Shown here: positions 44,668-64,000 of the stretch, piece by piece
Numbering within the stretch: position 1 is the stretch's first letter
Layout: each line of letters opens with the position of its first letter
NCBI RefSeq assembly: GCF_032164335.1
Contig: NZ_CP134152.1
Coordinates: 1-64,000, forward strand
Direction of reading: 5' to 3'
DNA: 64,000 nucleotides
Source of the DNA: Winslowiella toletana
GTDB taxonomy: Bacteria > Pseudomonadota > Gammaproteobacteria > Enterobacterales > Enterobacteriaceae
Made by a program: the position numbers and the translations under genes
The notes under the pieces: model-generated
Told to the model about the DNA's origin: nothing
Seen by the model: the letters and a program-made list of their open reading frames with translations, nothing else
Database searches by the model: none

Positions 44668-44676
44668 GAGGCAGCC

Positions 44677-47455: not shown

Positions 47456-47491
47456 TACGCTCTCTCCATTGGTTCGCTAAACAAAGTCCGC

Positions 47492-47990: not shown

Positions 47991-48015
47991 CCTGGAAAAC
48001 GGAAATTATCCCACG

Positions 48016-48477
48016 TTAAGACTGTTTTTTGTACATAAGCATTTTGTTGCTTTTATCACCATCTTTATTCTGTGCATTAGCCGGTGGTATCTTTAAGAAA
48101 TTAAAACAAAATAATGATTCGCGATCTGTGGGTAAATTTTTTGACTGATTAAACGCGAGCCGCATCACTTGACCACTACCTGACAATATCCTGAATAGCG
48201 ATGGCGATGCTATAAATGGTGCATATCCTGTTTGTGGAGTGAAATTAACGTCACCATCATCAAGCTCAGACCTGAGCAGCATAAGTTACTGTATCTTTAT
48301 TTCTAAATTCCAGAACGACAGAACGGCTTCCTGAAGGATATATTTTACGATTACCAATCATTGTGACGCTTGAAAATAATTTTGAAAATAAAAATAATGA
48401 TAATATCAAAAAATATAAGTTTTAGATTTTTTTAATATTAAGGTGTTGATTATCACTGTTGCTACCTGATTTAGCAT
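48016..48477 (-). pseudogene. Frameshifted, truncated fimbrial periplasmic chaperone
   Basis: On the minus strand a good ribosome site (AAGGGG, 48486-48491) precedes ATG 48477. Reading across frames gives a signal-peptide-like stretch, then VTMIGNRKIYPSGSRSVV, LEFRNKDTV, ELDDGDVNFTP, APFIASPSLFRI and NLPTDRESLFCFNFLKIPPANA, the N-terminal half of a PapD-type chaperone. At least two frameshifts are needed, one in a run of six A (near 48408) and one near 48270, and the C-terminal half is missing. It follows the dead major subunit as in a fimbrial operon. Confidence 0.82.
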
Positions 48478-48516
48478 TTCTAAAACCCCTTAAAAAGGAT
48501 ATTTAAATCACAGCAA

Positions 48517-48558
48517 TATTGGCATGAAACGTTTGAGCATTCATTTCACCTGCCAATA
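48517..48558. repeat. Stem-loop between the decayed subunit and chaperone
   Basis: TATTGGCA-TGAAA (48517-48529) pairs with TTTCA and TGCCAATA (48544-48548, 48551-48558). Such hairpins are common between the abundant major subunit and downstream genes of fimbrial operons, where they limit read-through or protect the mRNA. Here it lies between the two pseudogenes. Confidence 0.5.
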
Positions 48559-48602
48559 CTTATATTCTTCACTAATCATTATTTTTCTTGGGGGGCTAAT
48601 TT

Positions 48603-49124
48603 CTACTGATAACTGATCGCATATTGAACGGATGCAGCAACGGTACCTGGAGTGGCAGCCCCAGTTGCGTAAGATTGCGCCGAGAAAGCAGAGGTTGCTT
48701 CAGTTTCACCGGATGCAAGAGAAAGGTCTTACTGCGCGGTGTAACGTGAAGTCAGAGCTATCGGTTGAGCGCCAGTATCTGGTAGCTGCATTGTCACATT
48801 CCGAGCTGTACCAGTATGTGTATTATCCACAAGGTTGCCAACGAAAACTGTGCTGATATTTGTAGCCGTAGAGCTGCCAGTACAACCAGACACCCCCATA
48901 TTAAATGAAGCCGCATCGGCAACATCACCCGCTGCGGCCACGTCTCCTGCATAAACGGTAGGTAATAAAATAACAGCTGGAGCCTCATTCCCATTTACCA
49001 TCAATGAACAGGTCTCATCCGTTACTTCACCATGGAACGATATGGTGTTAGTTGACGCTATTGGCACATGGCTTGAAGCAAAGATAGCGAACAAACTTCC
49101 AGCGATAAGTAGATTCTTTTTCAT
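48603..49124 (-). pseudogene. Type 1-like fimbrial major subunit with an in-frame stop
   Basis: A fimbrillin gene of 174 codons including the stop, with signal peptide MKKNLLIAGSLFAIFASSHVPIAS, the conserved first Cys in GEVTDETCSLMVNG and a second in GVSGCTG. Codon 132 is TAA (48729-48731). The same frame continues without further damage through DLSLASGETEATSAFSAQ to VQYAISYQ, the donor-strand-type C-terminus, ending at TAG 48603. A single nonsense change therefore separates it from an intact 173-residue pilin. Its frame has the same length (522 bases) as the intact major subunit at 57227-57748. Confidence 0.88.
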
Positions 49125-49842
49125 TCAAATTTCCCTATTTGTAATCATGTTAAAAGCGATTACTTAAGTTAAGTAAACAAACCGTAATAACCATAACTCA
49201 AGTGGGAAAATGATAATTAAAATTTTTATTTTTTTGTGTCGATAACCATTGAAAATGTAAATATTAAAACTACACAATCACCGCTTGCGTAGTGTTTTAT
49301 GTTGTTTGTTTGGTTTTTATAGTATTTTATATAATTGAGTTTTAAACGAAATAGGGCTTACTCTAAAATATTTAACTAAACAATTAAAAAGTAACTAAGG
49401 ATATTAGCCAAGAAGAATCCTGGATGATATAAAATAATTTTTCTTTATTTAAAAAAAACATATCTGTGGAGTGTGTTATTTTGCCATAGCTCGGGCTTGG
49501 TTGAATAAATCGAACTTTTGACGGTAGTCAGGATCAGATCACCACACTCCTGATCCTGCAGCGATATCGCGTGGCAAAAAAAGTTCAAAATCACCAGCTG
49601 GGCTACCTACACACGGTGCTCATCCATCGGGGCTCTGACATTCTGGCTTGATGAGTCGGTCATTCAGGCCTGGTGTGACGAGCCCAACATGAATCCCGAC
49701 ATTTAATTACATAAGCCGGCGAATAATACTTAGTGTTAATAATTCATTTGCTGAATGTATAATCTAATGCTTAAATAGCTCACCATCGCGTATGAAACAC
49801 AACAACCTGTAGAATAAAAGAATTACTCAAAGGATTAGGACA
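49125..49842. other. Gene-poor AT-rich interval
   Basis: These 718 bases hold the promoter region of the dead fimbrial subunit, the insertion-sequence remnant at 49494-49690 and the promoter of the recombinase at 49843. The sequence is markedly AT-rich with many A and T runs. I searched it for the 15-base repeat of the switch at 57904-58215 and for other long inverted repeats near the fimbrial pseudogene and found none. AATCTAATGCTT at 49761-49772 recurs inside the switch at 57963-57974. Confidence 0.6.
49494..49690 (+). mobile_element. Left-end remnant of an IS903-group (IS5 family) element
   Basis: GGCTTGGTTGAATAAATC (49494-49511) matches the 18-base terminal repeat of IS903 with one mismatch. 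It is followed at the expected distance by the transposase start GTG GCA (49571), a 2-base deletion that shifts the frame, then KITSWATYT and ALTFWLDESVIQAW in the restored frame, the transposase N-terminus. Similarity ends near 49690; no right end was seen. It is a dead fragment. Confidence 0.8.
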
Positions 49843-50394
49843 ATGGCAGGGAGAAAATACCTCACTCATTTGGAAATTGAGAAACTGATCGCCGCAACTG
49901 CGGTCGGAAAGAACGCAGTCAGAGATAAATGCATGTTATTAATGTGTTTTATTCATGGCCTTCGCGTCAGTGAATTAACAAAGTTACGGGTAAACGACAT
50001 TGAGCTGGCAACGAATATAATTCACATATCCCGTCTGAAAAATGGTTTTTCGGTCCATCACCCGTTACAAATCCGCGAGGTAAAGGCAATTAAAGACTGG
50101 CTGAAAGTACGTTCACAATATCTTGATTCAGACACTGAGTGGTTATTTCTCTCACGACACGGTGGTCAGATCTCCCGCCAGCAGATCTACCGTTTAATAC
50201 GCAACTATGGAAAACAAGCCGGTATCAATGTCAATGTTCACCCCCATATGCTCCGGCATGCCTGCGGGTTTGCGCTGGCAGATAAAGGATGTGACACCCG
50301 GCTGATTCAGGATTATCTCGGCCACAGAAATATTCAGAATACTGTTATTTACACGGCAAGTAATGCCGAGCGGTTCAGAGCCATCAATATATAG
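49843..50394 (+). CDS. FimB/FimE-type tyrosine recombinase (distal copy)
   Basis: A 183-residue tyrosine recombinase consisting of only the catalytic domain, as in FimB and FimE, which invert the fimS promoter element. Catalytic residues are all present: R41, K66, H135, R138, H161 and the nucleophile Y170 in YTASNAERF. It shares long identical stretches with the second recombinase at 58245-58793 (for example DTRLIQDYLGHRNIQNTV). It lies at the far end of the fimbrial cluster, about 8 kb from the switch, beside the decayed fimbrial locus, and reads away from it. Confidence 0.92.
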   Translation: MAGRKYLTHLEIEKLIAATAVGKNAVRDKCMLLMCFIHGLRVSELTKLRVNDIELATNIIHISRLKNGFSVHHPLQIREVKAIKDWLKVRSQYLDSDTEWLFLSRHGGQISRQQIYRLIRNYGKQAGINVNVHPHMLRHACGFALADKGCDTRLIQDYLGHRNIQNTVIYTASNAERFRAINI

Positions 50395-50513
50395 TCATCG
50401 TGTTCTGCGCCCCAAAACGGGAATGCCCGCTTTATTTATGAAGGGGCATTTCCTCCGCCCGCAGGCCTTTCCCCTTCACGGCCTGTTCAGCACCTTTTTT
50501 TAACTCCTGTTAT

Positions 50514-51164
50514 TTAACAAATGTTTTTCAACATCAGGAACAGCTCGGAATCGGTTTTCACTCCCAGTTTGCGCATCGCATTGCATTTGTGCGCACTGAT
50601 CGTTTTGATGCTCAGCTGCTTAGCTTGTGCAATTTCACGCAGGTCCATGCCGTTAAACAGATGCCTGAGCACCTCAGTTTCGCTTCGCGTGATCCGCGCG
50701 GAAACCTGTATATTTTGTTCAGTCAGACGCACCAGGTCACAACAGATCCGCGGGCTTAAGACGCGCTTTCGGGCAAACGCCTGTCTGAAATAATCTTCGG
50801 TGTCGCTCAGCGATTCACCGCGTGCGATCAGACTGATATTGCGCTGGTTGACCAGCTTTCGCAGTTCGTTGCCGTTATGGCAAAGCGTATAGACCACGAT
50901 ATCCAGACGGGGAAATTGCTCACTCAGATTTAGCAGAATATCCAGCCCCTGGTGCAGGTTTTCCTGCGCGCTTTGCAGGTCTGTCACCAGAATATCCACG
51001 GAGTGATACATCAGGGCTTCTGAGATTTTCTCCAGACATGTTTCTTTCACGCGGATATCGCAGCCGCTATCAATGGACTTAATCAGTGATGACAGTCCGG
51101 AGAGCGTCAGCGGCTGGCTGTCCATCAGCGCCACGGCGCGGGTCGATGTATGAGTATGATACAT
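50514..51164 (-). CDS. LuxR/RcsB-like response regulator, last gene of fimbrial cluster
   Basis: A 216-residue regulator: receiver-like domain with D15 and D62 (DILVTDLQSA) but Ala-Arg (LIARGES) where the conserved switch Lys is expected, then a LuxR/FixJ helix-turn-helix at about residues 157-213 (RSETEVLRHLFNGMDLREIA, SIKTISAHKCNAMRKLG). No histidine kinase is encoded nearby. Salmonella FimZ and RcsB are relatives in domain plan. It sits 75 bases downstream of a second similar gene and both follow the fimbrial genes on the same strand. Confidence 0.88.
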   Translation of the reverse strand: MYHTHTSTRAVALMDSQPLTLSGLSSLIKSIDSGCDIRVKETCLEKISEALMYHSVDILVTDLQSAQENLHQGLDILLNLSEQFPRLDIVVYTLCHNGNELRKLVNQRNISLIARGESLSDTEDYFRQAFARKRVLSPRICCDLVRLTEQNIQVSARITRSETEVLRHLFNGMDLREIAQAKQLSIKTISAHKCNAMRKLGVKTDSELFLMLKNIC

Positions 51165-51239
51165 AACTCTCTTGCTCCTTGCTGCCGGGCTTCATTTCCC
51201 GACACCGTTCCATTTGCGGATGCCCTTTTGCCACCGGGA

Positions 51240-51953
51240 TTAATGGCTGGCAGCCGGACCAATCTTCGCCATCCATGTGCCCTGGGCAAAAAGTTCACTG
51301 TCATTGTGAAAACCCAGTTTCGTCATCGCATTGCGCTTATGTGTGCTCACCGTGCGGATATCGCGATACAGCGTCTGCGCGACGCTGGAAACGCTCATAC
51401 CCGAGAAAAGACAGGTCAGCACCTCGAGTTCACGGGCGGTGAGTGCCGGGTTTTTCATCGCAGTGTTCGTCACCAGCCTCTTTGCTTTCGGGCTAAGCCA
51501 CTGCTCCCCACCGGTCATCACGTCAAAAACACACTGCACCAGCGCCAGCTCCGGCTCGTGTTTAAGTAACACACCGTTGGCCGGAGAGGACGCCAGCAGT
51601 TCCAGCACGCGATGATCGCTGAAATCAGTGCAGATGATGATTTTCATCTCCGGATGTGAATCTTGCAGATGGGCCAGCAACAGCAGGCCATCAAGCACCG
51701 ATTCCTTTTCGCCGCAGATATCCATGATAAGCAGGGCCGGTAACGAGCGGGCGATGGCCGCCGGGATATCCGCAAGGCGTTGTACATAATTGACGGATTT
51801 TGTGATGCCGCAGGAACCGGTCAGTACACGCTTCATGCCCAGAGCTGTAACGGGACAAGCGTCCATAATCAATACGCCTTCCACCGGTAAATTTCGGCTG
51901 AAAGCGTCATGGGTACCATGACCCGGCGTGAGGTTTTCGACACTGTTCATCAT
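51240..51953 (-). CDS. LuxR-type response regulator, FimZ-like
   Basis: A 237-residue regulator with a receiver domain after an unusual N-terminal extension of about 25 residues. Acidic residue D31, phospho-acceptor D78 (LLIMDICGE) and K131 (VLLKHEP) are kept. The C-terminal helix-turn-helix reads LTARELEVLTCLFSGMSVSSVAQ and RTVSTHKRNAMTKLG. Two ATG codons are adjacent at 51953 and 51950; either may be used. It lies about 140 bases after the minor subunit and is probably reached by the fimbrial transcript. Confidence 0.88.
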   Translation of the reverse strand: MMNSVENLTPGHGTHDAFSRNLPVEGVLIMDACPVTALGMKRVLTGSCGITKSVNYVQRLADIPAAIARSLPALLIMDICGEKESVLDGLLLLAHLQDSHPEMKIIICTDFSDHRVLELLASSPANGVLLKHEPELALVQCVFDVMTGGEQWLSPKAKRLVTNTAMKNPALTARELEVLTCLFSGMSVSSVAQTLYRDIRTVSTHKRNAMTKLGFHNDSELFAQGTWMAKIGPAASH

Positions 51954-52095
51954 AGCTTCCTTGTTTTTTCAGTCACTTCCCGACAGGGACATAATCCGGG
52001 ACAAAATCCTTACGTTCTTTATTGATGGTTCTTATTGATGGTTCTTATTCATGGTACTTGCTGATTTTCCTCAGTTGCTGATCGTTCAAATGGGC

Positions 52096-52653
52096 TTACT
52101 GGTAGGTAAACGTGACTTGCACGCTGCCGACAATCGTCCCCGGCGTCACCTTCCCCTGCGCGCTGTATGCCCGGGCGCGCATGTCAAACGTGGTACTGCG
52201 GGTGGCGGTGTCAATGTTCTGAACTTTTTGCGCCGCGTTTCCCAGTGCCGTACCGTCGCTGGTTTCCAGCTGAATTTGCACCTGCGTGGCGCTGCCGGTG
52301 TTGGCGTACATGTCGCTTTCAGTCTCATCCGGTGTCCCGTTAACGGTCATGGTGGCTTCGGAGGTCGAGGCCGGACACGCCGTCAGCGCAATCGAGAAAG
52401 GTTTCCAGTCTGATGATGAGCCGGCCTCTGCCATCGACGAGGCCAGAATCTTCTGCCCCAGATCCACATTCATTCCGCCGGAAGGCAGGCTGATCGTGCA
52501 CGGCGACGCTTTAATATTGCCGGTGATATTCAGCACGGTGTCTGCGCTGGCTGTTTGCCACAGCGTGCTGGCCGTCAGCCCCAGTCCAAGCGCCAGAACC
52601 AGTGCCGATGCTTTTCCCTTAGTGATTACAAATGCCGTTAAGCCTTTCATCAT
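52096..52653 (-). CDS. Minor fimbrial subunit
   Basis: A 185-residue pilin-like subunit. A long signal peptide ends about TASA|DTVLNITGNIKASPCTISL; two cysteines (SPCTI and LTACPAS) form the pilin disulfide, and the C-terminus VQVTFTYQ has the penultimate Tyr needed for chaperone recognition. AAGGGG lies 8 bases before ATG 52653. It follows the adhesin gene by 32 bases, an unusual place because adhesins are usually last in type 1-like operons. Confidence 0.88.
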   Translation of the reverse strand: MMKGLTAFVITKGKASALVLALGLGLTASTLWQTASADTVLNITGNIKASPCTISLPSGGMNVDLGQKILASSMAEAGSSSDWKPFSIALTACPASTSEATMTVNGTPDETESDMYANTGSATQVQIQLETSDGTALGNAAQKVQNIDTATRSTTFDMRARAYSAQGKVTPGTIVGSVQVTFTYQ

Positions 52654-52685
52654 GGTGATATCCCCTTACCGGTCACGTCCCGGAA

Positions 52686-53780
52686 TTACTGTATTTCTGC
52701 GCGGATGGTCGCGGTGGCGGTGAAATCACCGGTGCCCGGCTCTTTACCACTGGTGTTAATCGGAAATAAGTTAATCTGCGACGTTCCCACCTGAGTAGCG
52801 TAATCCATCGTCAGCGGTAAGCGGCCGCTGAGCGGTGCCACGGTGGCACCCGCGCTGTCCTGGATCCTGACGCCCACATCGGCGTTAGTGGTCGAGAGTG
52901 CGGTCGGATCGTTGGCATCCGGCGTTCCCTGGAAAGAGAGGCTGACATTGACGCCTTCGGAAATATTGGTACAGGCCACGTTGAAATTGACGTTTTTCGG
53001 CGTGAAGTTTTTCGCCATCTGACCTTTGGTGGCGATATCGCCCGACAAGATGTCGTCGAACGGTACCGTGATCACGCCACCGCCATTGATAACGCACGAC
53101 TGCGGCACAGTCACTGTGCCGCTCATCCAGACGGTCGAGACAGGAACGGCCGACTGCGTCGTCGGATCAGAAGCGATATACACATCCACTACTTTGGTCA
53201 GCGGAATGGTTTGTACACCGACAAAAGGCCGGCGGAAATAGAGTGAAATGGTGCCGCGTGCGCCGGTGGCATAAGGATATCGGGCGCAGTTGGCGGCGGT
53301 ATTCTGGTTGCTGACACTGGTGAACGGCGTCGATTTAAAATCGCCAACTCCTCCGGCGATATAAACCTGACTGGCCACGGCGAGAAACTCGTTGATACTG
53401 TAATAATTCAGGTCACCGTCGGTGTACGCCAGCCCGGTATCCGGCACTTTTGCGGTCACGTAACCCCCGACATAGCTGCCAGTGCAGGAACAGGTAACAT
53501 TGTAGTTACCGCTGAGGTTCCACTGATAGGCGTTGTTAACGATCTTTCCGGCCGTGTTTTGGGTCGGGTCGGTTAACAAATAACTCATGTTGAACGTATA
53601 AGATTTTGTCCCGTCAGTCGGGGCGCAGTCACTTGCCTGCGCATTGGCGCTCAGTATGCCACCGGCCAGCATCAGCCCGAACAATGCACCCTTTTTACCC
53701 CCGGACACGCGGCAGAGGATTGGCTGGCGTGGTGAAGTCACGTCTGTTGATAATTGATTCATACGATCGGTCATTTCCAT
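52686..53780 (-). CDS. Two-domain fimbrial tip adhesin
   Basis: A 364-residue FimH-like tip protein. After an N-terminal extension, a signal sequence around residues 30-49 (KGALFGLMLAGGILSANAQA) leads into a Cys-rich lectin-like domain (SDCAPTDGT, NVTCSCTGS, AANCARY). A pilin domain begins near VPQSCVINGGG and has NVACTN and a C-terminal beta strand ending RAEIQ. Ligand specificity cannot be read from the sequence. The stop-to-start gap with the usher gene is 8 bases. Confidence 0.85.
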   Translation of the reverse strand: MEMTDRMNQLSTDVTSPRQPILCRVSGGKKGALFGLMLAGGILSANAQASDCAPTDGTKSYTFNMSYLLTDPTQNTAGKIVNNAYQWNLSGNYNVTCSCTGSYVGGYVTAKVPDTGLAYTDGDLNYYSINEFLAVASQVYIAGGVGDFKSTPFTSVSNQNTAANCARYPYATGARGTISLYFRRPFVGVQTIPLTKVVDVYIASDPTTQSAVPVSTVWMSGTVTVPQSCVINGGGVITVPFDDILSGDIATKGQMAKNFTPKNVNFNVACTNISEGVNVSLSFQGTPDANDPTALSTTNADVGVRIQDSAGATVAPLSGRLPLTMDYATQVGTSQINLFPINTSGKEPGTGDFTATATIRAEIQ

Positions 53781-53788
53781 GTTCCGCC

Positions 53789-56347
53789 TTACCGGCAGTC
53801 TCCGTTAATAAGTTGAATACCCGACGTGGCCGGTTGTTCAGGCAGGCGATAGTTCACCTGACAGGACTGCGCCGCTGAATTACCCCATTTCACTGTCAGC
53901 GTGCCGCTGTCGGACATGCCTGACAGATAAACCTGCCCACCGTCCCCGACAATGCTGCTGTTCTCCTTGCCACCGTTGTTCACGCCTGCGGTGGCACCAA
54001 ATGGCACCGGCTCGCCGTTGGCGCGGGTCAGTGTCATCAGCACACGCTGGCCGACGTTCGGATCAAAGTCCGCACGCACCACCGCGCCACGCGTTGGGAT
54101 CACCGTGGTGCTGGTCAGCGTCATATCGACATTGTCCGGCAAGGTTGAGGTATCAAGGGAAATCTGGTTACGCCGGTACGCCGTGGCGTAAGGCACCACC
54201 GCATAGCCGCGCCAGTCTGTTTTAACCCCGGTATTGCTGGCGATGCTGACATCGTCGGCGCCCGGCGCTTTCACCAGCACCACCGTTTCACTCAGCGGTT
54301 GCGAGAAGGTCACGCCATTTTCGTGCAACAAAATGCCGCCCTGCAGACCGTAATCCATACGGCGCTGCGTGCGGTCATAGCCGTAACCGGCATTCACTTC
54401 GCCGTAACCGCCTTTATAGTCTGCGCTGGCATAGCCGTTCGCACCCTGCCCCTGCGTGGTGTAACCCTGACTGATGTTGTAATTCAAATTGTCATCACGC
54501 AGTGCCGTGCCGCTCAGCCCGACGTTATGTGAGGTATTGCCGTTTTTACTGCTGTTAAGGTTATAGGTGGCGTAACTGCCCGGCAGCCATTTGCTCAACG
54601 GCACGCTGATGTTGACGGCCACAATCTGATCGGTGTAATAGGTCCGGTTGCCGTTGCTGTCCGTGCCATTGCGGTTATAGGTATAGTTAACCCCCCAGGA
54701 AATGCCTTCCCAGGTGTTGTTGTAGCCCACGCTGCCCGACTGGGTTGACCGGTTATTATTCCAGTATTCTTCTTTAACCAGACTCAGCGAAAGCGCACCG
54801 CCCTTTTCCCACAAGTTCTGGCTCAGGGTCAGTTCAGCGCGGCTTTTCTTGTGATCGCTGTAATATCCGCTGCCGCCGGAGTAGCTTTCCAGCGCTTCCT
54901 GCAAGGTGTAAAAACCGGCGGTGGAATAGCGGTAGCTGGCCAGGCTGAAGTTGGTGCCTGACTCGACAAAGCTTTTGCCGTAACGCAGACGGTAAGACTG
55001 ACCGCTGTCTTTTGGCGCGTCTTTCTGTTTAGTCCAGGCCTGCGTCACGTCAGCGGAAAGCGCACCGATGCTGCCGAGGTTTTGACCCAGCCCCATCGCC
55101 ACCGACTGATATTTGCTGGCCGCCTGCAAGCCGCCATACACCGTCGCACCGTGCGATAAACCATAAATCGCGGTGCCCTGAGTGAACGGCGTCTTTTCGA
55201 CGTTATCGTTATACGAGCGGTACTGACCGCTGGTGAAGCTGTATTTAAGATGTCCTTCGCGCTGAAGCACAGGCACCGACGCGAAAGGCACCACCATATT
55301 TCGCTCACTGCCGTCGGCTTCTTTAATCGTCACATTCAGGTCGCCACTGCCCGCTGTCGGATAGAGATCTGAAATGGCAAAAGGCCCGGCAGGCACGTAA
55401 CTCTGGTAGATGACATACCCGTTTTGGCGGATGGTCACCTGCGCATTACTGTTCGCAATGCCACGCACCACAGGCGAGTAGCCTTTCATACTGTCCGGCA
55501 ACATATCGTCGTCAGAGGCCAGCTGCAAACCGCGAAACGGAACCGTATCGAACACTTCGGTCGGTGAGTTACTTTCGCCTAACGTCAGCTGACCCCGCAG
55601 CGCCTGGATATCACGTTGCAAATAGGTATTGATGGAATCCCAGTGGTCAGTGCCATTGCTGTCGCGGTTCCAGGTGGAATAGTTACGCAAACGCCAGGCA
55701 CCCAGATTCGCCCCGGAACGCAGATTCAGGTAATAGGTATTGCTGTTACGAGCGTCGTTTTCCCGCGCTTCGGTGTTCGCGCCGCTGAAGCTGTAGTTCA
55801 TCAGCAAAGCCGGAATGCCCGGTTCCCATTTGTCAGGAGACACGTAACCGCGCGCCTGCGAATTCAGCGCCGCCTGGGGAATGCTCAGATCCAGCCGTTG
55901 CTGATCGAAGCGGAAAGCAGCAGAGGATTGCGCTATCGCACCGGTGAAATTGGCACACTCGTCTGTAGCCTGGATACCGGGGAACATGCCAATTTTCACG
56001 CCCATATCTCGCAGCAGTTCGCCGCTCAGACAGGGCTGCAGGCTTTGCTTACCCGCCGTATCCGTTGTCAGGGTAAATTTTACGTCGCGGGTATCGACCG
56101 CTGAACCATTCAGATAAATATCAACACGATAAGTGCCTGGCGGCTGTAAATCCCCCTCTTCGAAAATCGACAGATCGGCATTACCCTGTGCAGGATTATC
56201 GATTTCCAGTAAGGCCGGGTTGAAATATTCCGCTGCGCTGGCCAGAGGTGTTCCGCCCATTAACATTGCTATCTGGCACGACACCAGCCAGGCAAGCCGG
56301 GAACGCGTAAAGCCGGTCGAATTATGACTTTTCGTTTTGTTCTTCAT
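53789..56347 (-). CDS. Fimbrial outer-membrane usher
   Basis: An 852-residue FimD/PapC-type usher that assembles and secretes the pilus. Signal peptide ends near PLASA; the N-terminal domain AEYFNPALLEIDNPAQGNADLSIFEEGD binds chaperone-subunit complexes; a 24-strand barrel with plug domain follows, and the C-terminal domains contain the conserved Cys pair (AQSCQVNYRLPE and LINGDCR). The N-terminal Cys pair of FimD is also seen (LQPCLSGELLRDMG, DECANF). Length is normal. Confidence 0.95.
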   Translation of the reverse strand: MKNKTKSHNSTGFTRSRLAWLVSCQIAMLMGGTPLASAAEYFNPALLEIDNPAQGNADLSIFEEGDLQPPGTYRVDIYLNGSAVDTRDVKFTLTTDTAGKQSLQPCLSGELLRDMGVKIGMFPGIQATDECANFTGAIAQSSAAFRFDQQRLDLSIPQAALNSQARGYVSPDKWEPGIPALLMNYSFSGANTEARENDARNSNTYYLNLRSGANLGAWRLRNYSTWNRDSNGTDHWDSINTYLQRDIQALRGQLTLGESNSPTEVFDTVPFRGLQLASDDDMLPDSMKGYSPVVRGIANSNAQVTIRQNGYVIYQSYVPAGPFAISDLYPTAGSGDLNVTIKEADGSERNMVVPFASVPVLQREGHLKYSFTSGQYRSYNDNVEKTPFTQGTAIYGLSHGATVYGGLQAASKYQSVAMGLGQNLGSIGALSADVTQAWTKQKDAPKDSGQSYRLRYGKSFVESGTNFSLASYRYSTAGFYTLQEALESYSGGSGYYSDHKKSRAELTLSQNLWEKGGALSLSLVKEEYWNNNRSTQSGSVGYNNTWEGISWGVNYTYNRNGTDSNGNRTYYTDQIVAVNISVPLSKWLPGSYATYNLNSSKNGNTSHNVGLSGTALRDDNLNYNISQGYTTQGQGANGYASADYKGGYGEVNAGYGYDRTQRRMDYGLQGGILLHENGVTFSQPLSETVVLVKAPGADDVSIASNTGVKTDWRGYAVVPYATAYRRNQISLDTSTLPDNVDMTLTSTTVIPTRGAVVRADFDPNVGQRVLMTLTRANGEPVPFGATAGVNNGGKENSSIVGDGGQVYLSGMSDSGTLTVKWGNSAAQSCQVNYRLPEQPATSGIQLINGDCR

Positions 56348-56449
56348 TGTGTTAATTCCATGTTTGCAACGCAGCCAGAATTTCTGGCGCTACTCCCTCG
56401 CCTTCCTTGTTTACCGCCGTGACAGACTTCTTCTGGTCATTAATTCAGG

Positions 56450-57136
56450 TCAGAGACTGGCAATAAAAGGTTTGCTGGTGCCTCCGTAATCGTTGATGAA
56501 TTGCCAGCTCAGTGAGCCGCCGGTGACGCCGGCCGGTAAGTCAAAACTGGCATCAGACTGCGGTGCGACCATGGTGACGTTCTTCATCGCGCCGCCATTG
56601 ATTTTCACGTTAAAGAAAGTGATGTAATGCGCCGACGGGTTGGTCACCTGAATGCGGTTACCGATGCGTTTCCATGTCAGCGTTTTAGCGGACTCTTCCA
56701 GCGTACTTTTCACGCCGGACGGGCGAAAAATCAGCTTGATGCGCGTTTTCACGGCAATCTGCAGGGTGTTTTCTCGCTTCTCGGCGGAAGGGATCGATTT
56801 GATGTTCAGCCAGTACAGCGACTCTTTGGTCTCGGGCAAATCACCGCCCGCACGCACTACGCGCAGAATGTTTTGCTGATTACCGTCAAGGCGGAATAAA
56901 GGTGGAGTCACGATGAACGGCGCTTTGTCAGCCGATGCTGTTTTGCCGTTTTCAGCGCCATCCACCCAGGACTGGATCAGATAAGGCGTTTTATCGGGGT
57001 TACTGATATTGATGGAGGATTCTTTCTTGCCGCCGTCATAGATGAGACGCGTGCCGCCGACCACGACACCCGCCTGTGCGGCCATGCCGAAGGTCATTAA
57101 TAATGCTGCCACCGCTGTAGCGCGCCATGTTTTCAT
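56450..57136 (-). CDS. Fimbrial periplasmic chaperone
   Basis: A 228-residue PapD/FimC-type chaperone. The signal peptide MKTWRATAVAALLMTFGMAAQA is followed by VVVGGTRLIYDGGKKESSINI, with the Arg of the subunit-binding cleft, and by APFIVTPPLFRLDGNQQNILRVVR and TRIKLIFRP (cleft Lys). ATG 57136 with AGGGA upstream is preferred to an in-frame ATG at 57160. It lies between the major subunit and usher genes, as in type 1 operons. Confidence 0.93.
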   Translation of the reverse strand: MKTWRATAVAALLMTFGMAAQAGVVVGGTRLIYDGGKKESSINISNPDKTPYLIQSWVDGAENGKTASADKAPFIVTPPLFRLDGNQQNILRVVRAGGDLPETKESLYWLNIKSIPSAEKRENTLQIAVKTRIKLIFRPSGVKSTLEESAKTLTWKRIGNRIQVTNPSAHYITFFNVKINGGAMKNVTMVAPQSDASFDLPAGVTGGSLSWQFINDYGGTSKPFIASL

Positions 57137-57226
57137 CGTGTCCCTGCCTGTCTTAACCATTCAAATAGACCAGGGGCATGCACTCCCCTGGTCTGACTTA
57201 ATTCAACTGAAGCGAATCAAAAGGGC

Positions 57227-57748
57227 TTATTGATAAACCACGGTGAACTGAGTCACGCCGTTTGCATCACCCACGGTGACTGAGTCGGTCAGGGAGATGT
57301 AACGAGCGCTAAAGTCCAGATTGTTAGGACCGGTGCTGACCAGCGGATAAACAGAGGAGTCTTCGTACAACGGAACCACTTTGTTCTGGTTGTCAGAAAT
57401 CTGAATACCTACGCCTGAGGCAGTGTTGTCACCGGCAGTCAGCGCCAGCACGGTGTTGTCACCAGAAACCTGAGTACCGTCGAAACGCACGGTCGCACCG
57501 GTCACGGTGTCAGGGCAGTCGGTCAGAACTAAAGTGAATTTTTTGGCAGCGGCTAGTGAACCCGCAACAGGGAACGCGGTACGGGCGATATTACCCAGGA
57601 AGACATCCTGGTTTTGAGAAGCAGTATCGATCGTACAAGCCGCATCTGTGATAGTGCCAGTGAAGTTAACGGCGCCATCTGCTGCAAAAGCGGAAGAAGC
57701 GAATGCAGAAGACGCGATCAGGGCAACAGCAAGAAGATTCTTTTTCAC
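57227..57748 (-). CDS. Fimbrial major subunit (pilin)
   Basis: A 173-residue type 1-like pilin, first gene of the fimbrial operon and next to the invertible element. GTG 57748 is the start, with AGGAA 7 bases upstream and signal peptide MKKNLLAVALIASSAFASSAFA. Cysteines C38 (TDAACTID) and C78 (LTDCPD) form the pilin disulfide and the C-terminus is VTQFTVVYQ. An earlier in-frame start at 57775 lacks a ribosome site. Expression should depend on the orientation of the switch at 57904-58215. Confidence 0.93.
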   Translation of the reverse strand: MKKNLLAVALIASSAFASSAFAADGAVNFTGTITDAACTIDTASQNQDVFLGNIARTAFPVAGSLAAAKKFTLVLTDCPDTVTGATVRFDGTQVSGDNTVLALTAGDNTASGVGIQISDNQNKVVPLYEDSSVYPLVSTGPNNLDFSARYISLTDSVTVGDANGVTQFTVVYQ

Positions 57749-57903
57749 GAAATTTTTCCTATTAACATAATGCAAATCGAAACACCTTTCCCGGTGTTCG
57801 AATTAGTTTTGACAAAACCATCTGTCATTCCTTTATTTAGTTCATGAGGTTCCACCCCACTTAATAAGCCGCCGGGCGTGTTTAATCCCGAAACCCAAAC
57901 GAT

Positions 57904-58215
57904 TCATTTTGAACTAAAGTGACTCCTTTGGTTTATTGTGCTAAATATGGAATTTTGTGCAGAATCTAATGCTTTTATATGGGGTTATTATGAGATAAAA
58001 CTAAAGTATTTGCCGGCAGAGTGAGTATGGCGTGAGAAATCAAGCGAAGGGGATGTAAGAAAAAACCGAGAGACTTCCGGTATGTCGAATTAACAAATTA
58101 ATCTATAAGAAACTGAATTTTATATGATTTTAATAAACTTCTGCGGAGGGTGGCACTCAGTATTGACAGAAATTTACCGGCTGATTAGAGTATGCTCCAA
58201 TTTAGTTCAAAATGA
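57904..58215. promoter_or_regulatory. 312-bp invertible promoter element (fimS-like switch)
   Basis: TCATTTTGAACTAAA (57904-57918) and TTTAGTTCAAAATGA (58201-58215) are perfect 15-bp inverted repeats enclosing an AT-rich segment. The total of 312 bases is nearly that of E. coli fimS (314), and it occupies the same position, between a FimB/FimE-type recombinase gene and the pilin gene. The repeat sequence differs from the 9-bp repeats known in E. coli. A sigma-70-like promoter lies next to the right repeat. Neither strand codes for a plausible protein. Confidence 0.85.
58163..58191 (+). promoter_or_regulatory. Sigma-70-like promoter inside the switch, pointing away from the pilin
   Basis: TTGACA (58163-58168, perfect -35), 17-base spacer and TAGAGT (58186-58191, 4 of 6 of the -10). 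Transcription would start about 58198-58200, right beside the right repeat, and proceed rightwards into the antisense strand of the recombinase gene. Inversion would place it beside the left repeat reading into the pilin gene, about 155 bases from its start. Confidence 0.75.
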
Positions 58216-58244
58216 CCCCATTGAAACAATTAATTACAGGTTGG

Positions 58245-58793
58245 CTACCAGACTTCTTTAAATCTTTTGGCGTTACTCGCCGTATATAAAACCGTGTTCT
58301 GAATATTACGATGACCTAAATAATCCTGAATTAAGCGGGTATCAATCCCTCTGTCTGCCAGCGCAAAACCACAGCCGTGTCTTAACATATGCGGATGGGC
58401 GTTAATAGTTAGATTAGCGGCCTGACTATAATTTCTTATTAACCAGTAAATGCGCTGTCGTGATAATTTAGAACCACGATTAGAAAGAAACAACCAGTCG
58501 GAATCCGCACCACGGTATTGCTTTCTTTTATTCATCCAGAGCATTAACGATTTCCTTTCCCGCATATAGAGAGGATGAACGGTAGAGAAGCCATTTTTTA
58601 ACCGGTGGATATAGATATTATTGCCTTCCATGTCGATATCCGAGAGCCGCCAGCTGCTGATTTCACTGACCCGGCAACCGTGGATAAAACACATCCAGAT
58701 CAGGCAATAATCCCGTTCTGCGTGCCTTCCGCGCAACGTAGCCTCAAGCAGTTTCTCAACCTCAGACGGAGTCAGATATTTACGATTTTTCAT
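58245..58793 (-). CDS. FimB/FimE-type tyrosine recombinase (switch-proximal copy)
   Basis: A 182-residue catalytic-domain recombinase with the complete set R41, K66, H135, R138, H161 and Y170 (YTASNAKRF), numbering identical to the distal copy. Its 3-prime end is 29 bases from the right repeat of the switch, the position of fimE relative to fimS in E. coli, and it is oriented toward the switch and pilin. In the present orientation the switch promoter would make antisense RNA to it. Confidence 0.92.
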   Translation of the reverse strand: MKNRKYLTPSEVEKLLEATLRGRHAERDYCLIWMCFIHGCRVSEISSWRLSDIDMEGNNIYIHRLKNGFSTVHPLYMRERKSLMLWMNKRKQYRGADSDWLFLSNRGSKLSRQRIYWLIRNYSQAANLTINAHPHMLRHGCGFALADRGIDTRLIQDYLGHRNIQNTVLYTASNAKRFKEVW

Positions 58794-59440
58794 AGTGCCT
58801 CTTCATGTTCATAGTGTCCCGGATAAGTATTGATTTCGGTGGCACTCATCATTCAACACTTTTCCGAAAATGGAAATAGTGATCGCCTGCTGCACAACGG
58901 TTCATTAATTCATCGTTTAATAACAGGGGTTTTTAATATCCCTGTGTGGTTAGGGCCCTCCTTAAAGTGATGCGTATAAAGTCAATTCATTCATTTTCAA
59001 TATACGTCCTAAACCAAACGCCATCAAATAAAATAAAAATCAAAGCTTTATGGTTATCATCACTGACAATTAAGTTTATATCATATTCGCCATAACGTAG
59101 GCGTAATTTAAAATAATTCACGGTTTTAAACTGTTGTGAACTATATTAACAGATCAAGTACGTGGCAATCAGCATGGCGTATTTTCGCGTTTATCCTTTA
59201 ACACCCTCTCATTTTCGGTGCTACGGAGGCATTTTATCCTGCCTGTGGCAGGAATTTTTTACAAGGAAATTTCTGAGGCTTTTTACGCATTTTCAGGGCG
59301 GGCGAGAAGTTTATTTCAAGTGTATAGCTTAACATCCGAAAGTTGTGCCGAATAAACGGCGATCTGGCAACCACCAGTCGTTTTTTCGCGGCTACGGCGG
59401 GGATTAGCAAAGCAGGAACAACCTGAGACAGCGCGGAAAT
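58794..59440. other. AT-rich intergenic region upstream of the proximal recombinase
   Basis: No supported gene was found. The part next to 58793 must contain the recombinase promoter. GGTGGCACTCA occurs at 58838-58848 and again inside the switch at 58149-58159. A short stem ACAGGG / CCCTGT lies at 58923-58945. A 92-codon minus-strand frame at 59234-59512 runs through the terminator and looks spurious. Confidence 0.55.
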
Positions 59441-59468
59441 AAAAAAAAACAGGACGCAATGCGTCCTG
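59441..59468 (-). terminator. Intrinsic terminator of the ketosynthase-ketoreductase operon
   Basis: CAGGACGC / GCGTCCTG (59450-59457, 59461-59468) with a 3-base loop, followed on the minus strand by nine T (59441-59449). It lies 27 bases beyond the ketoreductase stop and is a textbook rho-independent terminator, marking the end of this operon. Confidence 0.93.
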
Positions 59469-59495
59469 TTTTGGTCAGGCAGAAGTAACGGGAGA

Positions 59496-60242
59496 TCAGG
59501 CGGAAAGACCACCGTCCAGAATGAGACTTTGTCCGGTCATGTACGTGCTGTCCTCACTGACCAGCCACGCCACCGCGCCTGCCACTTCGTCCACCTTTCC
59601 GAAACGTTTCATCGGAATCGTTTTACGCAGCGCAACAAGCTTGTCTTTAGGCATATCAGCGAGAATTTCGGTGTCGATATAACCGGGCAGCAGGCAGTTA
59701 ATCCGAACGTTAAAGCGCCCCAGTTCTACCGATAACGTTCGCGCAAGGCCGATCATCGCCGCCTTACTCGCCGCATAAGCGCTCTGCCCACTGTTACCCT
59801 TTATCCCCGTCACCGACGACATCATTACCACCGAACCACCGCCCTGCATCATCATCGGTTCAACTAACTGGCTGTTCCAGTAGAAGATGGCGTTTAAGTT
59901 GGTGTCCATGACTTTACGCCAGTTATCGGCGTTTTGGTGGATATGCAGCGCATCAAGCGTGATACCCGCATTGTGTACCACGGCGTGCGGCGCGCCGTAG
60001 CGTGCCAGCAGGTCAGTGGCCAGATGTATAACCGCCTGCTCATCACGCCCGTCGCACTGATGACTTTCGACCCGGCCGGGCAACCCCGCACAGGCCAGCT
60101 CCACCTCGTGCGCGGCGCTTTCGCCCTGACACCAGGTAAATACCACATTCCATTCTTTCGCCAGACGCTGTACGGCGGCGCGTCCGATCCCCCGGCTGCC
60201 ACCGGTGATTAAAATCCATTGATTTTCCATGACTTCTTTCAT
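59496..60242 (-). CDS. 3-oxoacyl-ACP reductase (FabG-like SDR)
   Basis: A 248-residue short-chain dehydrogenase predicted to reduce beta-ketoacyl-ACP with NADPH. It has the cofactor loop GGSRGIG (residues 14-20), NNAG-like HNAG, catalytic S143, Y156 and K160 (SAYAASK), and the PGYIDTE region. ATG 60242 overlaps the ACP stop (ATGA); ATG 60230 is a possible alternative start. As a dedicated copy in an operon with ketosynthase, dehydratase and ACP it probably serves a special acyl or polyene product. Confidence 0.88.
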   Translation of the reverse strand: MKEVMENQWILITGGSRGIGRAAVQRLAKEWNVVFTWCQGESAAHEVELACAGLPGRVESHQCDGRDEQAVIHLATDLLARYGAPHAVVHNAGITLDALHIHQNADNWRKVMDTNLNAIFYWNSQLVEPMMMQGGGSVVMMSSVTGIKGNSGQSAYAASKAAMIGLARTLSVELGRFNVRINCLLPGYIDTEILADMPKDKLVALRKTIPMKRFGKVDEVAGAVAWLVSEDSTYMTGQSLILDGGLSA

Positions 60243-60493
60243 GGCTTAGTGGCTTTTTCGCTGAGATACTGGCACAGCTCACGCACCGTAATGTTCACGT
60301 TATCGACGAACAAATCAGCCTCGATGGTGACGCCAAACTCTTTCTTCGCCAGCACCATCAGTTCAACGTAATCCAGGCTATCGAGTTTGAGCTGATACAA
60401 GGGCATGTCCGGGGTGAGATCTTCCTGCTCAAGATCCTTCGCGTCACACAGCATCTCGCAAACCTTGCTGTAAACCTCATCATAATTCGGCAT
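60239..60493 (-). CDS. Acyl carrier protein
   Basis: An 84-residue acidic carrier protein with the phosphopantetheine attachment site S39 in KLDSLDYVELM, placed at the start of helix 2 as in AcpP. It differs strongly from primary AcpP (for example MPNYDEVYSKVCEMLCDAKD at the N-terminus), so it is a pathway-specific ACP. It overlaps the ketoreductase gene by 4 bases. Confidence 0.9.
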   Translation of the reverse strand: MPNYDEVYSKVCEMLCDAKDLEQEDLTPDMPLYQLKLDSLDYVELMVLAKKEFGVTIEADLFVDNVNITVRELCQYLSEKATKP

Positions 60494-60547
60494 GTTTATT
60501 CCTTTAAGTGATTAATTTATATTTCTTTTTTATGAAAAATTAGTGTG

Positions 60548-61372
60548 TCATTCAGTCAGCGGTCCGGTTTTAAGCGTGACCGCGACGGACATCAGCGGTT
60601 CAGCGTCCTGCCATGCCTGAATGCCTGCCAGCAGCACCAGCCCGCGCTGTTTTTCGCCTATGACCAGCGTCGGCAGGATGGCGTAATGTATCGCGCCGAA
60701 ACGCGGTTCCTGTTCTGTCTGCGTCAGTAATCGCGGGGAAAAATGCGTTTCATGATGCGTCTGCACCACCTGTACCAGAGTAAAAACGTCACCCAGGCTG
60801 GTCGCATGAACCGACGGTAAAAGACTGTGCACGGTTTCCAGCGTCTGCGGGGCGTTCACCAGCTGGCGAAACAGCACCGCGTCGAGAAAACTCCACGGCG
60901 GAACCACCGGACTGCCGACAGCCAGAAACTGCGTATGCAGCGTTGCCAGTTCCTGCGCGCCCAGCGTATTCACCTGCGTGACCGGTGACAGCACCAGTGC
61001 CTGCGTCGGCGTCAGTTTGCTGCTGATGCTGGCCTGCTGTGTCTGCGCATGACGCAAGCTTGCGCTCAGCTGCACCCTGTCATCACGCAGCGTTTCGCGC
61101 ACCGGCAGCTGATACAGCGTGTCGCACAACACCGGTTCGCGTAGACGGCTGGTGAACATCAGTCCGTCTGCCGTAACCCCGTGCTTTTCCCGCGAAGTAC
61201 TCAGCGCCGATTTCATATCCAGCATCGCGCGCATTCCGTGAACACATAATCCGGTCAGACCAAGACGCTGCGCCTCAGCAGCATCAAAATGGATCGGATT
61301 GTAATCACCGGAAAATGCCGCCCAGCGTTCGGCATCAGACAGGCTGTAACGCAAAGTGTCAGCCGCCAGCAT
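60548..61372 (-). CDS. MaoC-like hot-dog dehydratase
   Basis: A 274-residue protein with an N-terminal MaoC/(R)-hydratase signature, FSGDYNPIHFDAAEAQRLGLTG-type with catalytic D23 and H28 and the following CVHGM. A second, less conserved half may be another hot-dog fold. It should dehydrate a beta-hydroxyacyl chain. ATG 61372 overlaps the ketosynthase stop by one base (TAATG) with GGAAGGGG upstream; the longer in-frame start would lie inside the ketosynthase. Confidence 0.82.
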   Translation of the reverse strand: MLAADTLRYSLSDAERWAAFSGDYNPIHFDAAEAQRLGLTGLCVHGMRAMLDMKSALSTSREKHGVTADGLMFTSRLREPVLCDTLYQLPVRETLRDDRVQLSASLRHAQTQQASISSKLTPTQALVLSPVTQVNTLGAQELATLHTQFLAVGSPVVPPWSFLDAVLFRQLVNAPQTLETVHSLLPSVHATSLGDVFTLVQVVQTHHETHFSPRLLTQTEQEPRFGAIHYAILPTLVIGEKQRGLVLLAGIQAWQDAEPLMSVAVTLKTGPLTE

Positions 61373-62643
61373 TATTTTCCCCTTCCGATCACCAGCGCGG
61401 CGTTCGCCCCGCCGAAGCCGAAACTCAGGTTCAGCGTGGTGTTCAGTACCGCCGGGCGATGCACATTGGGGACGTAATCCAGATCGCACGCAGGATCGGG
61501 CGCATCAAGATGGCAGGTCGCAGGTATGATTTGATGCTCAAGTGCCTGCAGGCAGATGATTGATTCAAAACTGCCAGCCGCCGCGATCAGATGTCCGGTA
61601 TAGGATTTGGTGCTTGAGCACGGGGTGCTATAAGCCGCCGTTTCTCCCAGCGCAATCTTGATTGCTTCGGTTTCATTGAGATCGTTGAGCGGCGTAGAGG
61701 TGCCGTGCGCATTGATATAATCCAGATCGCTGGCGGCAATACCGGCCTGCGCCAGCGCATGGCGGATGGTTTGCACCCGCGCAATTTTGTCTTCAGCCGG
61801 TGCGGTAAAATCAAACGCATCTGAGAAATTGCCGTAACCCAGAATCTCACCGAGAATGTTTGCGCCGCGCGCAACGGCCGATTCCCGTTCTTCCAGACAT
61901 AGCACCGCCGCACCTTCGCTGAGCACAAAACCGTTGCGATGCAGGCTGAACGGGCAACAGGCGCGGGTGATCGCTTCCTGTTCACTGGCCAGCGCGCCCA
62001 GCACGTCGATATTCCATACCGCCGAATCAGAACGCAGTGATTCTCCCGCACCCGCCAGCATCATGCTGGCCCGGCCACTGCGGATCAGTTCGAAAGCGTC
62101 GCCGACCGCGATAGTTCCGGTCGCACAAGCCGCAACCGGCGTGTTCTGATAGCCACGCAATCCCCACAGCAAACTGACTGCCGCCGTGGCGGAATTCGGC
62201 ATGGAGAAAAAGCAGCCAAAAGGAGATCCCATACCGGTACGCAGATAGTCTTCGTAATGCAGCTGAGTTTCATCCTGGCCCGCCCAGCCGGTACCCATAA
62301 TGACGCCACAGTCGCGCAAATCGTAATGTTGCTCCGGCTTGTCATCGCCAAACGCCATCTGCATCGCTTCCCGCGCGGACGCCAGCGTCAGCCGTGCATA
62401 ACGCGGCAGGCGGCGACGGATCGCCGCAGGCACGCCTTTGAGCGAAGGTTCATGATCAATCAGGCCGTAAAAACGCGATTTAATCCCGGCAGCTGATTTG
62501 TCGCAGTAGCGGTAACCAGGCGTGTAATCCATGATCGCGGCCCAACTTTCGGCGGAGTTCAACCCCAGCGGGGTCACCGCACCGTAACCGGTCACGACCA
62601 CCCGACGCGGCGTGTCTGCCGTCTGTAAAACATCCTTTTGCAT
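61372..62643 (-). CDS. Beta-ketoacyl-ACP synthase (KAS II-like)
   Basis: A 423-residue condensing enzyme with the full Cys-His-His set: C173 in VAACATGTIAVGDA, H313 in INAHGTSTPLND and H351 with K346 in STKSYTGHLIAAAG, and the C-terminal NLSFGFGGANAALV. It resembles FabF and type II PKS ketosynthases; no separate chain-length factor is visible in the window. It begins 3 bases after the efflux gene and is coupled to the dehydratase. Confidence 0.9.
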   Translation of the reverse strand: MQKDVLQTADTPRRVVVTGYGAVTPLGLNSAESWAAIMDYTPGYRYCDKSAAGIKSRFYGLIDHEPSLKGVPAAIRRRLPRYARLTLASAREAMQMAFGDDKPEQHYDLRDCGVIMGTGWAGQDETQLHYEDYLRTGMGSPFGCFFSMPNSATAAVSLLWGLRGYQNTPVAACATGTIAVGDAFELIRSGRASMMLAGAGESLRSDSAVWNIDVLGALASEQEAITRACCPFSLHRNGFVLSEGAAVLCLEERESAVARGANILGEILGYGNFSDAFDFTAPAEDKIARVQTIRHALAQAGIAASDLDYINAHGTSTPLNDLNETEAIKIALGETAAYSTPCSSTKSYTGHLIAAAGSFESIICLQALEHQIIPATCHLDAPDPACDLDYVPNVHRPAVLNTTLNLSFGFGGANAALVIGRGK

Positions 62644-62646: not shown

Positions 62647-64000
62647 TTATCCTTGTTGACTCAATGTGTTGTCTTCCCCGCCACCCAGCGCCAGCCAGAG
62701 TTTCATGGTTGAATACAGGTAGTTATATTGCGTGGTGACCAGCGTGTTCTGGCTGTCCAGCAAGGTGTTCTGCGCGTCGAGCAGCGTCTGATACGCCACC
62801 GAACCGTGACGATACTGGCTTTCCACCAGCGCCAGCCGCTGCTGGCTTAATACCAGATCTTCCAGCTGTCGCTGTTTTTCCTGCTGATAGGTCAGGCGCT
62901 GCGACATGGCATTGTCGATATCCTGCAACGCGCTGTACGATGCGCTGCGGAACTGAATCGCCGCGGTTTGTACATCCAGACCGGATTGTTCAACGGTCAG
63001 CCGTACTTTGTTCCATTCGATAAACGGCAAGTTGAGCGCAGATCCAAGCGTTCTGGCCGGATTGCTGAACCATTGCTGAAACACAGAAGCCCCGGCATTC
63101 AGTGACGCATTCAGCGTCAGCGACGGATAAAAGCTCAGCCGTGCGACGTCCGAACCGGCCAGCGCCGCACGCAGATTCATCTCAGCCGACTGCACATCCG
63201 GCCTTCTGGCGATTACTTCAAGCGGTAAACGCTGCGCCACAGGCACGCTCTGATGAATATCCAGCGACTGACGCTCTGCAAGGTATTGACCCGGCGGACG
63301 GCTAAGTAAAATCGCCAGTGCATTACGGTTTTCATCGCGCTGTTGATACAAATCGCGCAGGTTATTTTCGCGGCTCAGCACCGTTTGCTGTGCCTGCAAA
63401 TAATCCAGTTGACCGAGATCACCGGCTTTCCAGCGTGACGTCACCATCACCACGGTTTTCCGCGCAATCGCCAGGCTTTGCTGCAAATTACTGATTTGCT
63501 GATTCAGGCTGGCAATCTGCCAGTAAAGCTGTGAAGTGGTTCCGATGAGCGTCAGTGCGGTGGCCTGCAAATCCTGCTCCGAGGCTTTTGCCAGCCAGTC
63601 GGACTGCTCGCGGGTGCGCGCCAGTTTCCCCCACAGATCCAGCTCATAAGAGGCCGACAGTGAGTTCGTGTAACTTTCGACCGGCGTGGTTTCGCGGCGC
63701 ATATTTTTGGTGTTGCTGGCCGATGCATTGGCAGAAAAATCAGGGGTCAGATTCAGATCTGAGATACCCGCCGTCAGCAGCGCTTGCCGCAGTTTTATGC
63801 CCGCCAGCGCCAGATCGTTATTGCTTTGCAACGCGGAAACAATCAGCCGTGACAGCTGCGGGTCATCAAAGTTATCCCACCAGTGCGGAGAAAATTTCGC
63901 CACGCCCTCGCCGGTATCCTGCACCCGCCAGGTTTGCGGCACCGACAGCATCGGCCGCTGGTATTCGCTTTTCAGCGCCTGACCACAGCCGGTGATCAGT
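62647..64000 (-). CDS. Outer-membrane efflux lipoprotein, NodT/OprM family (partial)
   Basis: The 3-prime 451 codons of a TolC-like outer-membrane channel for an RND or MFP-dependent exporter. The frame continues past the window edge: codons just inside 64000 read LITGCGQALKSEYQRP, so a lipobox with its Cys is visible and only the signal peptide start is missing. Two repeated coiled-coil halves contain PHWWDNFDDPQLSRLI, YELDLWGKLARTREQSDW and RRPDVQSAEMNLRAA, family hallmarks. It is the first visible gene of the biosynthetic operon and suggests the product is exported. Confidence 0.9.
   Translation of the reverse strand, partial: LITGCGQALKSEYQRPMLSVPQTWRVQDTGEGVAKFSPHWWDNFDDPQLSRLIVSALQSNNDLALAGIKLRQALLTAGISDLNLTPDFSANASASNTKNMRRETTPVESYTNSLSASYELDLWGKLARTREQSDWLAKASEQDLQATALTLIGTTSQLYWQIASLNQQISNLQQSLAIARKTVVMVTSRWKAGDLGQLDYLQAQQTVLSRENNLRDLYQQRDENRNALAILLSRPPGQYLAERQSLDIHQSVPVAQRLPLEVIARRPDVQSAEMNLRAALAGSDVARLSFYPSLTLNASLNAGASVFQQWFSNPARTLGSALNLPFIEWNKVRLTVEQSGLDVQTAAIQFRSASYSALQDIDNAMSQRLTYQQEKQRQLEDLVLSQQRLALVESQYRHGSVAYQTLLDAQNTLLDSQNTLVTTQYNYLYSTMKLWLALGGGEDNTLSQQG

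Follow-up and report, generated by a model that had tools for sequence, protein, structure and literature searches.

A candidate fimS-type invertible promoter element upstream of a chaperone-usher fimbrial operon in Winslowiella toletana

The mad switch of Photorhabdus and the kpc switch of Klebsiella are invertible promoters of fimbrial loci, the arrangement that is proposed here for a locus of Winslowiella toletana. The former is named in the accessible part of PMC5903667, and KpcI of the kpc switch in that of PMC3419637. In fimS of Escherichia coli (MG1655, L104), recombinase, switch and pilin follow one another in one direction, the OFF orientation has an outward-directed promoter at the recombinase-side end, and the recombinase carries a catalytic tetrad; all of these features recur in the W. 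toletana locus. The mrp locus of Proteus mirabilis, with MrpI, resembles it by description in that a promoter inverts between the recombinase and pilin genes and the recombinase gene adjoins the element; however, the mrp element is 252 bp long and MrpI is its sole recombinase. CS18 (fot) of enterotoxigenic E. coli likewise combines, by description, a 312-bp inversion and the Fim-type recombinases FotS and FotT with chaperone-usher fimbriae (both systems from the portion of PMC9820224 that was available). The hyxS and ipuS switches of uropathogenic E. coli are also described as having Fim-type recombinases; however, the targets of ipuS are a LuxR-type regulator and an autotransporter rather than a fimbrial operon, according to the available text of PMC6083910.

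The window analyzed here comprises the first 64,000 nucleotides of contig NZ_CP134152.1 of W. toletana. It contains a perfect 15-bp inverted repeat with an outer span of 312 bp, flanked by a recombinase gene and a pilin gene, as an earlier note on this DNA had stated with correct coordinates and neighbors (Table 1). The order on the minus strand is recombinase A, element, pilin, chaperone, usher, LpfD-like adhesin, minor subunit, and then two LuxR-type regulators. The inverted repeats thus bound a segment within the range of about 250–320 bp between recombinase and pilin genes, an outward promoter is predicted inside it near one end, and half-sites flank a matched center at both ends. The interpretation put forward in the earlier note, a fimS-type inverton upstream of a chaperone-usher operon, is supported at the level of sequence by the adjacent recombinase with its tetrad, by the outward promoter, and by repeats, ends, and placement that are conserved across 31 distinct elements, one of which, in a relative, looks inverted. 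Segment 57904–58215 is therefore very probably a fimS-type invertible promoter element that flips the fimbrial operon ON and OFF.

Table 1 Features of the putative invertible element and its surroundings in the window.
Feature	Position	Strand	Remarks
Recombinase B, second Fim-type invertase	49843..50394	+	Faces the operon from its far end
LuxR-type regulator	50514..51164	-	Relatives linked to recombinase B in L032, L041, L055, L085
LuxR-type response regulator	51240..51953	-	Relatives linked to recombinase B in L032, L041
Minor fimbrial subunit	52096..52653	-	
Tip adhesin-like fimbrial protein	52686..53780	-	Best NCBIfam model LpfD, below cut-off
Outer membrane usher	53789..56347	-	
Periplasmic chaperone, PapD-type	56450..57160	-	
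Major pilin	57227..57748	-	PF00419; start read as GTG 57748 behind AGGAAAA
Leader, element to pilin start	57749..57903	-	First 150 bases 145/150 identical to each of L112, L138, L139
Putative invertible element, OFF orientation	57904..58215	.	312 bp with both 15-bp arms
Pilin-side recombination site (predicted)	57905..57921	+	17-bp dyad CANTT-N7-AANTG, center TGAACTA
Promoter-like TTGACA-17-TAGAGT	58163..58191	+	Inside the element; points at recombinase, away from pilin
Recombinase-side recombination site (predicted)	58198..58214	-	Same 17-bp CANTT-N7-AANTG form, inverted
Recombinase A, FimB/FimE-type tyrosine DNA invertase	58245..58793	-	182 aa; R41 H135 R138 Y170

The arms of the element are TCATTTTGAACTAAA (57904–57918) and TTTAGTTCAAAATGA (58201–58215), and its two ends read from outside to inside are CATTTTGAACTAAATTG and CATTTTGAACTAAAGTG. 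The arms match perfectly over 15 bp and at 17 of 18 positions when lengthened inwards. It is probably not the 15-mer but the 17-bp dyad at 57905–57921 and 58198–58214 that acts as the functional unit; in the site scan the pair 57905..58214 has no mismatches to the site form. The dimensions are close to those of E. coli fimS, in which the outer edges of the 17-bp sites are 320 bp apart, compared to 310 bp here. The MG1655 promoter TTGAGA-18-TATGAT corresponds to TTGACA-17-TAGAGT, with a spacer of 18 as against 17 bp, and the end of the −10 hexamer is separated from the inner half-site by 5 bp in E. coli and by 6 bp here. Both elements have TGACTC at the other inner end, and this motif, together with the shared geometry, argues for homology of the two switches over mere resemblance. 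By contrast, the center is GGGGCCA in E. coli and TGAACTA here, and the pilin-side inner half-site, which is degenerate in E. coli (TTTTG), is intact. The presence of two intact sites bears on whether site asymmetry sets the ON-to-OFF bias of the E. coli switch.

The promoter-like sequence scores 10/12 in a consensus scan, the best of six promoter-like sites in 57700–58900; the shuffle mean is 3.0, and such sites are therefore not rare. Because the best promoter match lies inside the element and is directed away from the pilin gene, the assembly shows, by analogy with E. coli fimS, the OFF state. In the proposed mechanism, recombinase A, and perhaps recombinase B too, would bind the half-sites, strand exchange would take place within the TGAACTA center, and the DNA between the sites would flip. 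TTGACA-17-TAGAGT would then lie next to the pilin-side site and drive transcription of the leader and of the pilin-chaperone-usher-adhesin operon (ON), whereas in the orientation found the operon would be without this promoter (OFF). We infer both the inversion by recombinase A in this strain and the resulting control of the operon. Since a flip would move the promoter to the operon, the fimbriae are expected to be phase variable, as the earlier note had anticipated.

Recombinase A scores 248.6 bits against the NCBIfam DNA invertase model PRK09870, above the cut-off of 221, and shares 58.2% identity with FimB and 51.6% with FimE of E. coli. This enzyme, which adjoins the element, keeps the catalytic R-H-R-Y residues, and R41, H135, R138, and Y170 match the essential tetrad positions given in the accessible part of PMC9820224. 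The operon, unlike that of E. coli, is not of the type 1 (fim) kind: the NCBIfam models of the type 1 pilin, chaperone, usher, and adhesin remain below cut-off, so that its subunits are not FimA–H by this measure. Where E. coli has two tandem upstream recombinase genes, fimB and fimE, this locus has a single one upstream and the other at the operon's far end. The start of the pilin gene was placed at TTG 57775 by the ORF finder, as against GTG 57748 as read here.

The same repeats in the same placement beside A-type recombinases occur in Rahnella, Serratia, Pantoea allii, a Buttiauxella bin, and other genomes of the family, for which phase-variable fimbriae are predicted in Enterobacterales outside E. 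coli. The repeat pattern was found in 12 of 392 family genomes, the host included, and by genus in 1/6, 7/7, and 10/30 genomes of three genera and in 5/14 and 2/2 of two more, the sets overlapping. A database search with the repeat pattern alone returned 30 bacterial loci including that of the window (L105–L118, L120–L131, and L136–L139), and every one of them has an A-type recombinase beside the element. Two pattern matches from IMG/VR (L132, L133) were rejected, as they have no match to the proteins of the window and their inner ends are unlike. Elements were collected by an exact 11-bp-arm pattern together with named loci that have the same arms. This gave 40 elements, of which 31, including that of the window, are distinct, although many of the 31 share a genus with others and are not independent. 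The variants L025, L028, L036, L039, and L081 are outside the 31, and L015, which is cut off inside the element, is also uncounted. All of 28 distinct elements and all of four loci added later carry TTGAC-18-TA..[AG]T at the same end; overall, this form is shared by all 31 distinct elements, the window's among them.

The earlier note had proposed a comparison with related genomes in search of both orientations. Of the 31 distinct elements, 30 are OFF and one, from the Buttiauxella bin, looks inverted (ON), with no single species having both. In leave-one-out scoring of the inner ends, all 27 elements scored, that of the window included, favor the orientation found by at least 75 bits; the four later loci, outside this scoring, were called OFF from their ends and promoter. 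The Buttiauxella element comes from one metagenome bin reached through two collections (L020 and L108, identical elements). Its scores favor the flip (−45.5 versus −57.0), the summed margin being only 11.5 bits. The D-end scores 18.6 flipped and −23.6 as found, whereas the P-end is poor both ways and less poor as found (−33.4) than flipped (−64.2). The promoter form has its usual offset but lies on the pilin side. The ON call follows from the D-end score and this promoter position, and it is softer than the other calls. The end of contig L015 inside the element was considered as a sign of mixed orientations and rejected, because the contig ends in adapter-like sequence, presumably a sequencing adapter.

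The excess of OFF elements has a parallel in E. coli. Among 5,426 E. coli genomes, 4,674 match a 76-base OFF junction of fimS, and at least 80% of it is present in 4,425 of these 4,674 (about 95%); two of the remaining 249 were inspected, and both are ON. As about 95% of assemblies are OFF for a proven switch, 30 OFF elements among 31 are what a working switch would give.

The site form was defined as CANTT-N7-AANTG and scanned for as two sites with identical centers, 220–360 bp apart, with at most 3 of the 16 fixed bases off. Site pairs were found in 37 of 80 Fim-type recombinase loci, which are the best of 313 relatives, and in none of 240 mononucleotide shuffles; since the form was derived from these same loci, the count is a description and not an independent test. 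Among the 15 different centers tallied, all but TGGCTCA and TGAGTCA fit [TAG]GNNC[CT]A (13 centers). The commonest are TGAACTA (11 loci), AGGACCA (6), and GGGGCCA (5), the last being the E. coli kind. Ten of the 11 TGAACTA pairs are without mismatch, and L039 has one. E. coli fimS departs from the form at 2 of the 16 fixed positions, and both departures fall in its pilin-side inner half-site; a stricter scan with at most one mismatch per site misses it and finds pairs in 21 of 87 loci, whereas the looser scan finds it. Of 40 control motifs, 32 gave no loci, and the other eight gave 1, 5, 6, 12, 12, 18, 20, and 20, the high counts presumably because these motifs overlap the same repeats in a shifted reading. 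Two Fim-type recombinase loci of Serratia proteamaculans UME734 (L045, L047) have site pairs of their own, with centers TGAGCCA and TGAGTCA, and are apparently duplicated switches.

The earlier note had described the repeats as different from, and longer than, the 9-bp repeats of E. coli. The difference in letters holds; length, however, does not distinguish the two kinds, both of which fit one 17-bp form. The E. coli-type switch has perfect 15-bp repeats in its Raoultella copies as well (L061, L071, L090), and repeats of 16 bp for hyxS and 7 bp for ipuS are given in the part of PMC6083910 that was available. The half-sites of E. coli are known to flank and overlap the repeats (PMC6458436, accessible text). 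The visible repeat length is set by the agreement of the outer half-sites and the center and therefore says little about kind. The repeats of 57904–58215 are new in letters, not in kind. This bears on a question left open in the same portion of PMC6458436, namely the way in which Fim recombinases work on switches with repeats of unlike length and sequence. If the half-sites are constant and only the 7-bp center varies, the cross-activity of Fim recombinases would be predictable.

The second recombinase gene at the far end of the operon is the less usual feature of this locus. Recombinase B is 60% identical to recombinase A and has the same R-H-R-Y tetrad. In a tree of 83 recombinases, from which L042, one of the 80 named loci, was left out as its frame breaks early, A and B belong to different well-supported groups and neither is on the branches with FimB or FimE, although FimE is on a long branch and its placement is unsure. 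The simplest guess from these sequences is that B acts on the same switch as A. It is possible, if doubtful, that B, or A and B together, drives the switch, with the labor split as between FimB and FimE but from opposite ends of the operon; this would be a variant of the main explanation and not exclusive of it. B-type and A-type genes are found on one contig, about 12 kb or less apart, in R. bonaserana (L014/L032), P. allii (L017/L041), Serratia rubidaea (L042/L038), and S. oryzae (L018/L060), and L117 has a tandem of a B-type gene followed by A, ahead of the switch. B also has no convincing site pair of its own. A second switch belonging to it was sought in 47000–52700 by a relaxed site-pair scan and rejected, as the scan was empty, and none of 17 repeat pairs near the gene was convincing by eye. 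Near the B-type genes of L032, L033, L038, L041, L055, L060, L085, and L089 there is no relaxed site pair, and near that of L065 one poor pair. However, it is A and not B that directly adjoins the switch. B points towards A in three of the four genomes, as in the window, but in the same direction as A in P. allii, and the facing arrangement is thus not constant. Furthermore, R. victoriana (L033) has only a B-type gene among the best 80 of 313 relatives, on a contig that ends about 180 bases behind the gene. Close to recombinase B, 48729–49124 (minus strand) is a pilin-like ORF of 131 aa that has no Pfam match and, by eye, lacks the usual C-terminal end; it is a possible remnant of another fimbrial gene.

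Taken more broadly, the locus may represent a separate lineage of fim switches with a center fixed as TGAACTA, two fully symmetric sites, and two recombinases at opposite operon ends that share the switching like FimB and FimE, a division reached separately. Fim-type recombinases in general would then read one form, CANTT-N7-AANTG, with a lineage-specific center that is mostly [TAG]GNNC[CT]A. This proposal is tentative and the odds are against it. If it is true, switches thought unrelated by their repeats are one family that can be found by a simple scan.

The locus appears to have been exchanged recently. Segment 49692–64000 is 92% identical to Rahnella bonaserana over 14.3 kb, as against only 81% for glyQS (43756–46746). 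The element was not matched in any of 35 other genomes of the host's own genus, and as a DNA query against 60 genomes, its own included, it returned itself and two weak 37-base matches in one other genome. Of 37 genomes of the genus, five (one of them the host's) have a Fim-type recombinase at E ≤ 1e-40, and the best of those in the other four are 54–60% identical to A. Relatives of A at the same threshold are present in 78 plasmid records, the best identity being below 60% in every one. These comparisons make it probable that the whole locus was transferred between genera.

The element could be locked in this strain. Both the 30 OFF elements among 31 and the signs of recent exchange would suit a fossil, a switch that once worked but is now stuck OFF and whose recombinase and repeats persist only through recent descent, but this is improbable. 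A similar OFF excess is seen for the proven E. coli switch, and recombinase A is full length with its catalytic residues. Moreover, the repeats are intact, as is the promoter, whereas the middle of the element (about 57975–58145), which drifts fast, has only 74–86% identity to three close copies (L112, L138, L139), compared to 97% in the adjacent non-coding leader; intact working parts around a drifted middle point to continuing selection on the working parts. It is still less probable that the repeats serve a transcription regulator as a pair of operators and that the intervening DNA stays fixed. Operators can take the form of paired inverted sites near a promoter, and a ligand for them could come from the two LuxR-type genes of the locus; however, the sites are spaced by 310 bp and placed right behind a recombinase gene, their form is common to E. 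coli fimS and 37 of 80 other Fim-type recombinase loci, and one relative looks inverted.

A chance origin of the repeat was considered as well. The 469-bp intergenic region has a GC content of 37%, and AT-rich DNA favors chance repeats; any perfect 15-bp inverted repeat was reached in 4 of 5,000 dinucleotide shuffles of this region. The exact 15-mer has two copies in the whole 5,014,558-bp genome, and at two mismatches there are 11 further copies, as against 10 for a reversed-pattern control. The window contains only two perfect 15-bp inverted repeats with a span of at most 1 kb and at least 50 bases between the arms, 57904–58215 and 25255–25684, and no such pair appeared in 20 whole-window shuffles. 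A chance repeat is refuted by the conservation of the same repeat in the same place in 31 distinct elements with differing interiors, and its rarity in shuffles and its mere two copies in 5.01 Mb also count against it.

A known RNA element as an explanation of 57904–58215 was rejected, as there is no Rfam match at gathering scores in 47400–59500. Neither 15-mer was found in a literature search of running text; only 11-mers matched, under no title on fimbriae. The element is not described in the available parts of PMC6083910, PMC6458436, PMC9820224, PMC3419637, PMC10758657, PMC11868660, and PMC5903667, and an earlier report elsewhere is possible.

The other perfect 15-bp inverted repeat, 25255–25684, spans 430 bp inside what by eye looks to be a long coding region for a GDSL-type lipase or autotransporter. 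The stretch 49530–49700, at the left border of the block in common with R. bonaserana, reads by eye like an insertion-sequence remnant. The same block includes genes for a short-chain reductase, an acyl carrier protein, a MaoC-like protein, and a ketoacyl synthase (59496–62643, minus strand) and, beside them, for an outer membrane efflux protein (62647–63999, minus strand). The second contig of the host genome (L119) is 90.8 kb long, and the 20 kb inspected match conjugative plasmids with F-type transfer genes of Enterobacter, Citrobacter, and others at about 95%.
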